A DNA stretch of 64,000 nt from Solidesulfovibrio carbinolicus (GTDB lineage Bacteria > Desulfobacterota > Desulfovibrionia > Desulfovibrionales > Desulfovibrionaceae). A program made the position numbers and the translations under genes. The notes under the pieces are model-generated. The model ran no database searches and was not told where the DNA came from. It saw only the letters and a list, made by a program, of their open reading frames with translations. Positions 56,419 to 59,032 of this stretch are shown here, one piece after another; position 1 is the first letter of the stretch; every line of letters starts with the position of its first letter. The stretch spans positions 3,472,001-3,536,000 of the forward strand of contig NZ_CP026538.1 in assembly GCF_004135975.1 (NCBI RefSeq), in the 5' to 3' direction.

Positions 56419-58356
56419 ATGAGACGCAATATCTATCTGCGGACGATTCCCATCGAGGAAGCGCTGGCGCGGGTTGTGGAGCGGCTGGATCGGGAGACGC
56501 TCGTTGGCGTGGAGCGTGTCGGGGCCGAGCGCTCGGCCGGGCGGGTCACGGCCGAGCCGGTCATTGCCCGCTATTCCTCGCCCACCTACCACAGCGCGGC
56601 CATGGACGGCATTGCCGTGCGCGCGGCCGAGACCTTTGCCGCCCGCGAAGGCTCGCCGGTGCGACTTGCGCCGGAAACGGGCTTTGTCTTCGTCAACACG
56701 GGCCATCCACTGCCGACCGGGTTCGACGCGGTGGTGATGATCGAAAACGTGGTCATGGACGGCGAGGCGGCCTGCATCGAGGCTCCGGTGGCCCCTTTTG
56801 CCCATGTGCGGCGCATTGGCGAGGACATCGTGGCCACGGAGATGATTTTGCCGCGCCATCGCCGCATCACGCCCTACGACGTGGGGGCGCTGTTGTCCTG
56901 CGGCGCGTATGACGTGTCGGTCTACGAGCGCATCCGCATCCGGGTGATCCCCACCGGCGACGAGGTCATGGATTTCACCTCGCGCCCGGCTCCCGGGCCG
57001 GGCCAGGTGGTGGAGAGCAATTCGATGCTCTTGTGCGCCCTGGCCGACGAATGGGGCTTTGTCTGCGAGCGGGTGCCGCCGGTTTCCGACGATCCCGAGG
57101 CTTTGGCCGAGGCGGTGCGGGAGGGCATCGCATCCGACGCCCACATCGTGGTGACGGTGGCCGGCTCCTCGGCCGGGAGCAAGGATTTCGCCCGGGCCAC
57201 CATGGAGCGGTTCGGCGAGGTCCTGGTGCACGGCGTGGCGGCCATGCCGGGCAAGCCGTCGCTATTGGGCGTGGCCGAGGGCGGTAAGCTCTTGGTTGGC
57301 GCGCCGGGCTATCCGGTCAGCGCCGTGGTCTGTTTCGAGCGGCTGCTCTATCCCCTGGCCTGCTGGCTGTCCCGGGTCGAACCGCGCAGCAAGCAGACCG
57401 TGACCGCTTCCCTTGCCCGCAGCGTGCCGTCGCGCATCGGCATGGTGGATTTCGTGCGTCTGGCCGTGGGCAAGGTCGGGGAGCGCCATGTGGCCCTGCC
57501 GCTGTCGCGCGGGGCGGGCAGCATTTCCACCCTGACCAAGGCCCAAGCCGTGACGCAACTCCCGGCCGCGGCCGAAGGGCTGGAAGCCGGGGCCGAAGTC
57601 ACGGCCGAGCTGCTCTGCGATCCGGGGGAGCTTGCCCGCACGCTCGTGTGCGTGGGCAGCCACGACAACACGCTGGATCTCCTGGCCGATCTGCTCATGC
57701 GCCGTACCCCGGCCATCCGGCTGGCGTCGAGCCATGTGGGCAGCATGGGCGGACTGATCGCCCTGCGCAACGACGCGGCCATGGTGGCCGGCACGCACCT
57801 GTTTGATCCCGAGACCAACGACTACAATTTCCCGTTCCTGGCCAAGTACCTGCCCAATCTTCCCGTGACGGTGATCAATCTGGCCGTACGCCAGCAGGGG
57901 CTCATCGTGGCCCCGGGCAATCCGCTGGGCATTGCCGGCGTGGCCGATCTGGCCGACGGCAAGGTGCGGTACTTGAACCGCCAGCGCGGGGCCGGCACGC
58001 GCATTCTCTTCGACTACCATCTGGCCCAGGCCGGCATTGATCCGGCCCGGGTGTCGGGCTATGGCCGCGAGGAGCACACCCACATGGCGGTTGCCGTCAA
58101 CGTGGGCACGGGCGCGGCCGACTGCGGCCTGGGCGTCTATGCGGCGGCCAAGGCCCTGGGGCTGGATTTCGTGCCCCTGGCCCGGGAGCGCTACGATCTG
58201 GTGGTGCCCACGGCCTATCTGGGCGACCCCAAGATCGAGGCGGTGCTGGAGACCGTTCGTGGCGGGGAATTCGCCGCCCGGGTGGAGGCCCTTGGCGGCT
58301 ACGAGACGGCCTGGACCGGCCGGATCATGGCGCCGGGCATGGGCCTACCGGACTGA
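56419..58356 (+). CDS. MoeA-PBP-like fusion protein (molybdopterin and molybdate/ligand-binding domains)
   Basis: 645 residues. Residues 1-400 are MoeA-like, including SSPTYHSAAMDGIAVRAAETF, IPTGDEVMDF, VVESNSMLL, TVAGSSAGSKDFARAT and HGVAAMPGKPS. Residues about 410-640 form a periplasmic-binding-protein-like (PBP) domain with the fold seen in SAM/LysR regulators. It contains SHDNTLDLLADLLMR, SHVGSMGGLIALRNDAAMVAG, HLFDPETNDYNFPF, RQRGAGTRILFDYHL and AVAVNVGTGAADCGLGVYAAA. Such fusions are seen in deltaproteobacteria and clostridia and may couple cofactor insertion to substrate sensing. It begins with a GGAGGTCAGC site. A second, ordinary MoeA lies at 52289; the fusion may serve a special enzyme such as a W enzyme. 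Confidence 0.9.
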   Translation: MRRNIYLRTIPIEEALARVVERLDRETLVGVERVGAERSAGRVTAEPVIARYSSPTYHSAAMDGIAVRAAETFAAREGSPVRLAPETGFVFVNTGHPLPTGFDAVVMIENVVMDGEAACIEAPVAPFAHVRRIGEDIVATEMILPRHRRITPYDVGALLSCGAYDVSVYERIRIRVIPTGDEVMDFTSRPAPGPGQVVESNSMLLCALADEWGFVCERVPPVSDDPEALAEAVREGIASDAHIVVTVAGSSAGSKDFARATMERFGEVLVHGVAAMPGKPSLLGVAEGGKLLVGAPGYPVSAVVCFERLLYPLACWLSRVEPRSKQTVTASLARSVPSRIGMVDFVRLAVGKVGERHVALPLSRGAGSISTLTKAQAVTQLPAAAEGLEAGAEVTAELLCDPGELARTLVCVGSHDNTLDLLADLLMRRTPAIRLASSHVGSMGGLIALRNDAAMVAGTHLFDPETNDYNFPFLAKYLPNLPVTVINLAVRQQGLIVAPGNPLGIAGVADLADGKVRYLNRQRGAGTRILFDYHLAQAGIDPARVSGYGREEHTHMAVAVNVGTGAADCGLGVYAAAKALGLDFVPLARERYDLVVPTAYLGDPKIEAVLETVRGGEFAARVEALGGYETAWTGRIMAPGMGLPD

Positions 58357-58517: not shown

Positions 58518-58790
58518 ATGGACTGGAAACTGTTTGCGACGACGTTTGCCACGATTTTCGTGGCCGAGCTGGGCGACAAGACGCAGCTGGCCTGCGTGCT
58601 GACGGCGGCGGATTCGAGAAACCCCTGGGTGGTTTTTGCCGGATCGAGTCTGGCCTTGATCGCCACCTCGCTTCTGGGCGTGGTCTTTGCGGACTTCATT
58701 TGCAATTTCGTGTCTCCGGCCATCATCAAGAAGGTCGCGGCCGTGGCCTTCGTGGTCATGGGGACGCTTATTTATTTCGACAAATTGTAG
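58518..58790 (+). CDS. GDT1/TMEM165 family transporter, single-repeat form
   Basis: 90 residues, three membrane helices. It contains the family signature E-x-G-D-K-T at residues 17-22 (VAELGDKTQLACVL). Full-length GDT1 proteins carry two such repeats; bacterial half-size members work as dimers. The family exports Mn2+ or Ca2+ in exchange for protons. A GAGGACAAC site precedes the ATG. The stop is 8 bases from the start of the Sec-containing gene, so the two are probably translated from one message. It is separated from the upstream moeA-PBP gene by a palindromic repeat. Confidence 0.87.
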   Translation: MDWKLFATTFATIFVAELGDKTQLACVLTAADSRNPWVVFAGSSLALIATSLLGVVFADFICNFVSPAIIKKVAAVAFVVMGTLIYFDKL

Positions 58791-58798
58791 GAACCGCC

Positions 58799-59032
58799 AT
58801 GAACGACGAACGCGTTTTCGTGGATCTGCGCGACAAGTGCTGAGGGTTGGGGCTGGAGATAGGTTGGTATCTCCGTCTCTCCCGGGCGCGCGAGCTGGAA
58901 TTCCTGGTCGCCCCCAAGGCCCGGCCGGTCCTTGAGGACCAGTTGCTCACGGTGTCGGGCTGGAGCCTTGACGTGGCCGAGGCCGAGGGGTTCCTGCGGG
59001 CCGTCTATCGGCGTCTGGCCCCGGCGAAGTGA
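58799..59032 (+). CDS. Selenocysteine-containing TusA/SirA-like protein
   Basis: A 77-residue product if the TGA at codon 15 (58841-58843) is read as selenocysteine; the frame is open from ATG 58799 (TAGGAACCGCC site) to TGA 59030. Around the Sec it reads VDLRDKC-U-GLGLEIGW, which lines up with the TusA pattern DLRGLxCPxP, placing Sec at the catalytic cysteine, with an extra Cys just before it. The rest (RELEFLVAPKARPVLEDQLL, WSLDVAEAEGFLRAVYRRL) follows the beta-alpha-beta-alpha-beta-beta TusA layout and length. A 7-bp hairpin with loop GGTTGG begins 11 bases after the TGA, the spacing of bacterial SECIS elements. It could be a sulfur or selenium carrier or a redox protein. If UGA is not recoded, the gene would instead be a 14-residue stub with a separate 61-residue frame starting at a TTG. 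Confidence 0.85.
58855..58874 (+). promoter_or_regulatory. Putative bacterial SECIS hairpin
   Basis: The stem GGAGATA (58855-58861) with TATCTCC (58868-58874) is a perfect 7 bp, loop GGTTGG. It starts 11 bases after the in-frame TGA, the same distance as in the E. coli fdhF element, and the loop holds the G-U usual for SelB binding. One further T-G wobble pair extends the stem. Confidence 0.8.

Follow-up and report, generated by a model that had tools for sequence, protein, structure and literature searches.

A probable selenoprotein gene with a predicted TusA-like fold and a vicinal Cys-Sec pair in Solidesulfovibrio carbinolicus

Is the TGA at codon 15 of a short gene in Solidesulfovibrio carbinolicus a stop, or is it read as selenocysteine (Sec)? 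The gene lies at positions 58,799 to 59,032 of the window, by which we mean the whole 64,000-nucleotide (nt) stretch of DNA analyzed here (contig NZ_CP026538.1, positions 3,472,001 to 3,536,000, forward strand). A sequence-only reading, made without database searches, had proposed a TusA-like selenoprotein with adjacent Cys and Sec, a hairpin of selenocysteine insertion sequence (SECIS) type after the TGA, and coupling to a GDT1-type transporter gene. The gene is very probably a selenoprotein gene. Comparison of homologues indicates that SelB and tRNA-Sec almost certainly insert Sec at the UGA, directed by the hairpin 3' of it.

Decoding of the in-frame UGA

58799..59032, + strand: putative TusA-like selenoprotein gene, 77 residues, Sec at position 15 (sequence, homologue comparison, predicted fold).
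58841..58843, + strand: in-frame TGA, read as Sec15, with Cys14 directly before it (column conservation among homologues).
58855..58874, + strand: putative SECIS hairpin, 7-bp stem GGAGATA/TATCTCC, hexaloop GGTTGG (folding, covariation, bacterial SECIS constraints).
58789..58792, + strand: AGGA, resembling a ribosome-binding site; it overlaps the stop codon of GDT1 (sequence).

Direct reading of the sequence confirms that the frame opening at ATG 58799 has TGA as its 15th codon (58841-58843) and is otherwise open to the final TGA at 59030-59032. With Sec counted (U), the product has 77 residues: MNDERVFVDLRDKCUGLGLEIGWYLRLSRARELEFLVAPKARPVLEDQLLTVSGWSLDVAEAEGFLRAVYRRLAPAK. Among named relatives, Solidesulfovibrio magneticus isolate UBA7700 is nearest, with 97% protein identity.

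The TGA is conserved at codon 15 across four families. It is present in all nine named relatives of the first search. The loci fetched up to then gave 103 distinct homologous segments, with 92 TGA, 10 TGC and one (L126) unaligned at the column. Of forty rows from out-of-family or weakly matching genomes (L200-L240), 34 have TGA, and in the other six Cys fills the column or a position beside it; home-family genomes (L167-L195) have TGA in 29 of 29 rows. Neither TAA nor TAG was seen at the column in any of these three sets. Cys is at or next to the column in 16 of the 17 exceptions to TGA among the 103 segments and 40 rows. The vicinal pair is borne out: of 120 distinct genes, 119 have Cys directly before Sec. 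This 120-segment set, used below for hairpin integrity, resampling and codon positions, consists of TGA genes by construction.

Profile A1 (the window gene and the nine named relatives) matched in 133 of 288 genomes of the home family, Desulfovibrionaceae, 131 of which have a copy with in-frame TGA, a count that rests on stop counts for some genomes and on reading by letter for others. The remaining two genomes (G163, G166) were matched only through a copy without TGA. A broader profile, A2, for which 70 sequences (60 with Sec and 10 with Cys) were taken out of 108 distinct ones, matched in 176 of 348 genomes of the order, Desulfovibrionales. TGA-bearing genes occur in 131 home-family and 34 other genomes, or about half of the 348 searched. 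A phylum-wide sample of 395 genomes gave six, all in the home family, with the narrow profile A1, the only one used at that breadth; A2 was confined to the order, and a wider spread is possible. No relative was found in the viral contigs searched. In one genus, the gene is cut by TAA in one genome (L098, G229) and is very divergent with a poor hairpin in another (L129, G248); both keep the neighboring operon genes.

The 7-bp hairpin with loop GGTTGG noted earlier has the geometry of a SECIS element. It starts 11 nt past the TGA, with 18 nt from TGA to loop and an energy of -15.7 kcal/mol over 32 nt. The bacterial SECIS (bSECIS) model described with the 2026 selenoprotein catalogue calls for a stem of 4-16 bp, a loop of 3-9 nt with G within the first two places, a distance of 16-37 nt from the UGA and a minimum free energy of -7.5 or lower (PMC13188914). 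The window hairpin lies within all of these limits. The single-sequence fold is not convincing: folding of 50 nt gave z = -1.79, and 11 of 200 shuffles were equally good. The evidence for the hairpin therefore rests on cross-species comparison. Rfam at gathering scores found no match within the window.

We assessed covariation in alignment A4, which holds 89 distinct ungapped 45-nt segments picked as TGA-bearing. Standard pairs fill 95.3% of stem cells; offsetting the partner by one, two or three columns lowers this to 37 to 67%. In four of the seven stem pairs both partners vary, and among these changes A-U replaces G-C in 37 sequences and C-G replaces it in five. On each of five covariation measures, 0 to 3 of 500 shuffles reached the observed value, which is not a probability. 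Among 120 distinct segments from the order, 101 keep all six outer pairs; in 200 runs of synonymous-codon resampling the number that did so averaged 12.2 and never exceeded 21. The Leu25 codon is CTC in 103 of 120, and CTC accounts for 103 of 757 other Leu codons in the same genes. By these comparisons the hairpin is kept beyond coding need. Mean fold energies were -12.6 for TGA segments (n=120) and -10.7 for Cys paralogs (n=10); because the paralogs also give some structure, covariation and not fold energy is the argument. One genus of family f110 (L211-L213, L215-L219, L221, L222, L224, L225, L227, L230) has His for Gly after Sec and a hairpin in shifted register, mostly with an AGTT-type loop.

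The machinery for Sec insertion, which was to be looked for in the genome, is all present: selA, selB, selD (which has its own TGA) and the selC product tRNA-Sec with anticodon TCA. Across the family, selB exceeds the cut-off in 232 of 288 genomes, namely 121 of 131 with a TGA copy and 111 of 157 others (Fisher p 2e-6, with genome kinship ignored). Ten TGA-copy genomes have no selB over the cut-off; seven of these are estimated to be less than 90% complete, and G176, G263 and G269 are 95% or more complete. At one locus (L072, G004:C6) the selenoprotein gene and selB are convergent and about 1.1 kb apart.

An ordinary stop, giving a 14-residue peptide and a separate open reading frame (ORF) of 61 residues from TTG 58847, or else a decaying gene like the TAA-cut and divergent copies above, is hardly credible and we reject it: the TGA is kept across four families with no TAA or TAG seen, the hairpin covaries, strand 1 of the predicted fold precedes the UGA, and differences per codon at positions 1, 2 and 3 are 0.25, 0.18 and 0.48 upstream of the UGA and 0.52, 0.43 and 0.61 downstream of the hairpin, a pattern that looks coding on both sides, if only mildly on the second.

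Several observations weigh against the Sec reading or its details. The fixed-register stem is broken in 19 of 120 distinct segments, many of which fold a related hairpin in shifted register (chiefly one genus of another family) and a few of which fold weakly. Of the 89 sequences in A4, 24 lack pairing at the innermost stem position. On a second look, selB was again not found over the cut-off in two genomes with the TGA gene, G263 (estimated 100% complete) and G269 (96%). One gene, L116, has Gly in place of the preceding Cys. The support for Sec comes from sequence comparison. Taken with these, the conserved TGA, the covarying hairpin, the Sec machinery and the Cys alternatives still strongly support selenocysteine.

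Cysteine-containing relatives

Cys occupies the Sec place in ten paralogs, five more sequences and one ortholog, L237, which reads Cys-Pro-Cys (CPC). The ortholog is in genome G693, sister to G692 and G673, two genomes of one genus in another family that have the TGA gene and selB. In G693, Cys-Pro-Cys stands instead of Cys-Sec, and the gene adjoins metallo-beta-lactamase (MBL), flavin mononucleotide (FMN)-reductase and ComF genes as it does in G692 and G673. The fold at the hairpin place is weaker in G693, at -14 kcal/mol versus -28 and -30 in G692/G673 (60 nt). We found no selB in G693 at E<=1e-30; as this genome is 85% complete, the lack is not proven and is suggestive only.

A tree groups the CPC sequence with its two sisters (support 100/100). 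The other 15 Cys sequences form a clade of their own (100/99); this group of paralogs co-occurs with the Sec gene in ten genomes. The tree omits L098, L129 and L126 and has few columns and long branches, and only these two splits are used. The CPC ortholog apparently offers a natural Sec-to-Cys swap, coinciding with an apparent loss of selB.

The paralogs (L056, L117-L119, L121-L125, L128, L231, L232, L235, L236, L240) continue with CGLxP after the Cys. Five of them, scanned singly against Pfam, gave no match. They often lack the preceding Cys, so the Cys pair is not needed in every relative, a point against the redox-pair mechanism proposed below.

Fold and relation to known proteins

The predicted fold is beta-alpha-beta-alpha-beta-beta and TusA-like, with strand 1 before the UGA. 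The prediction puts Sec15 immediately ahead of helix 1, the place occupied by the reactive Cys in TusA. In DLRDKCU the TGA falls six residues past Asp, the same spacing as the TusA Cys, and hhalign puts Sec15 on that Cys in a weak match (probability 24%, E 8e-4). The TusA-like assignment is supported for the fold and, less firmly, for the place of the reactive residue. Family membership is not supported. The TusA profile PF01206 is absent among the 12 Pfam families matched by any of the 70 A2 members at E<=1, in a scan whose HMMER filters discard most matches above about 0.1. The TusA Pro-x-Pro is indeed lost, as had been claimed: the window has CUGLG, and no CPxP occurs in alignment A1. An NCBIfam scan of the 70 members gave only seven unrelated families (best E 0.077), and neither Pfam nor NCBIfam has a meaningful match for the selenoprotein. 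Foldseek found no structure at E<=0.001, a further point against the assignment. Because the TusA profile and CPxP are both missed, we do not file the protein in TusA, although the fold agrees. The TusA/SirA family (PF01206; E. coli TusA, SirA-like 3hz7, YeeD/TsuB) has CPxP, whereas the proteins described here have CUGxG with a vicinal Cys-Sec pair.

Mammalian thioredoxin reductase has a C-terminal GCUG, in which Cys-Sec-Gly forms a vicinal selenenylsulfide. The same Cys-Sec-Gly order occurs here, but close to the N-terminal end of a short TusA-like chain, and the reductase would be a separate polypeptide.

Other known proteins share single features. SaoL, SaoC, HgcA, MbdU and KCU-star have adjacent Cys and Sec (Table 1 of PMC13188914), but their NCBIfam models are unmatched by the 70 members at E<=1. 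YedF combines TusA-like and DsrE-like domains and is linked to SelD, so that a TusA-like domain is tied to selenium use there as well; it differs in having two domains, and the accessible portions of these two papers do not call it a selenoprotein (PMC5322559, PMC2432076). DsrE-like and HesB-like selenoproteins are listed for Desulfovibrio vulgaris (PMC1794560), and rhodanese-like ones are catalogued in Table 1 of PMC13188914. These are sulfur-handling folds with Sec, but belong to other families, with no profile match here.

Table 1 of the 2026 catalogue covers 119 families and subfamilies of prokaryotic selenoproteins, and neither that table nor the accessible text contains a TusA or SirA entry or mention (PMC13188914). 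The deep-Sep study reports nine new families, none named in its accessible text as of a TusA-like kind (PMC12013277). Among the literature matches listed for TusA or SirA-like proteins together with selenoprotein or selenocysteine, none reports the gene; an unnamed mention in supplementary tables is possible. A single-genome mention of the gene is likewise possible for D. gigas, with nine selenocysteine proteins in a supplementary table (PMC4287179). Since Pfam, NCBIfam and the 2026 catalogue have no entry, annotation probably cuts or drops the gene. If the reading is true, selenocysteine enters the TusA-like fold.

Gene neighborhood and proposed chemistry

58518..58790, + strand: GDT1-type half transporter, 90 residues (Pfam PF01169, 79.2 bits).

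The coupling to GDT1 proposed earlier is true in the window, where the GDT1 ORF ends 8 bases before the selenoprotein ATG. It is found in only 16 of 97 neighborhoods, confined to Solidesulfovibrio and a close genus, with other partners elsewhere, and we set GDT1 aside as a functional partner. We surveyed 128 loci, each carrying a distinct gene, from across the order; because some loci are short, the counts are lower bounds. An FMN-reductase-like gene is directly downstream in at least 103 loci and an MBL-fold hydrolase gene directly upstream in at least 85; ComF is nearby in at least 97, and a nitroreductase is farther upstream in at least 68.

The downstream partner matches Pfam FMN_red at 43.3 bits in the one member scanned. 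All 73 inspected partners contain CX2CX2CX4-11C, with a spacing of 4-7 in 57. Iron-sulfur flavoprotein (Isf) has an FMN-reductase fold with a compact CX2CX2CX4-7C. Structure comparison of the partner matched no Isf structure. The partner is missing from the ORF list in 39 of 97 loci, and we considered whether it is a second selenoprotein; a six-frame search found the gene in 73 loci, with no in-frame TGA in any of them, so the gap is an ORF filter or threshold effect.

These neighbors and the motif suggest a mechanism. A TusA-like scaffold, presumably in the cytosol, would present Sec15 just before helix 1. Cys14 and Sec15 would act as a vicinal redox pair, cycling between selenol-thiol and selenenylsulfide or mixed intermediates; a selenenylsulfide from this pair is plausible. 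Where the genes are linked, electrons would come from the co-encoded FMN-reductase-like protein with its cluster-type Cys motif. Candidate substrates are peroxide, disulfide, persulfide or a selenium compound. We favor a pair over a single relay residue because Cys14 is near-invariant and the CPC form keeps two Cys. The whole chain, from decoding through the redox pair, has about an even chance of being right. More tentatively, the gene may represent a new family across the order, in which a TusA-like scaffold has come to carry electrons on a vicinal Cys-Sec pair, receives them from a dedicated Fe-S flavoprotein and acts together with the MBL hydrolase and nitroreductase, as a small-protein anaerobe counterpart of the thioredoxin reductase selenenylsulfide. 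If so, a conserved redox operon of sulfate reducers becomes testable.

Two other functions were weighed. Sec15 could instead accept sulfane sulfur as Se-SH, with a desulfurase or a source of sulfide as donor, and pass it on, with Cys14 releasing it. The place of Sec at the TusA Cys in a TusA-like fold would suit such a sulfur or selenium carrier, as would the next best structures, which include YeeD (from a thiosulfate-uptake complex) and E. coli TusA, and the MBL neighbor, which in the one member scanned resembles glyoxalase II and, more weakly, sulfur transferase/dioxygenase and ETHE1. We nonetheless consider it unlikely: CPxP is absent after the reactive residue, PF01206 is unmatched, no desulfurase is recognized among the recurring neighbors (four scanned against Pfam), and a simple relay does not need the second Cys kept in 119 of 120 genes. 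Binding of a soft metal or metalloid (Hg, As, Cu) by the pair is more improbable still. Catalogued CU-motif selenoproteins, some metal-linked, include SaoL, SaoC, HgcA and MbdU (PMC13188914), and the GDT1 gene adjoining in the window is cation-transporter-like. That linkage is limited to 16 of 97 loci, however, the recurring neighbors are not known metal-resistance genes, and the flavoprotein points to electron transfer. Because no recurring neighbor was recognized as a desulfurase or metal-resistance gene, the neighborhood weighs, if weakly, against both functions.

The redox-pair reading has its own difficulties. Motif and gene order are the whole basis for the chemistry and for the flavoprotein partnership. 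The FMN-reductase gene does not adjoin in 25 of 128 loci, one of which (L043) ends with the contig. In the window genome, the MBL, FMN-reductase and ComF genes are grouped at another site that lacks the selenoprotein gene, which may have moved away from the operon there.

The window also contains an upstream neighbor, listed here for its position:
56419..58356, + strand: MoeA fused to a PBP-like domain (domain scan).

In 13 of 97 neighborhoods the gene for this fusion accompanies those for GDT1 and the selenoprotein. Loci of genus g23 (L085, L101, L105, L107, L112, L132) have a different neighborhood, with no MBL or FMN-reductase genes in the stretch fetched.
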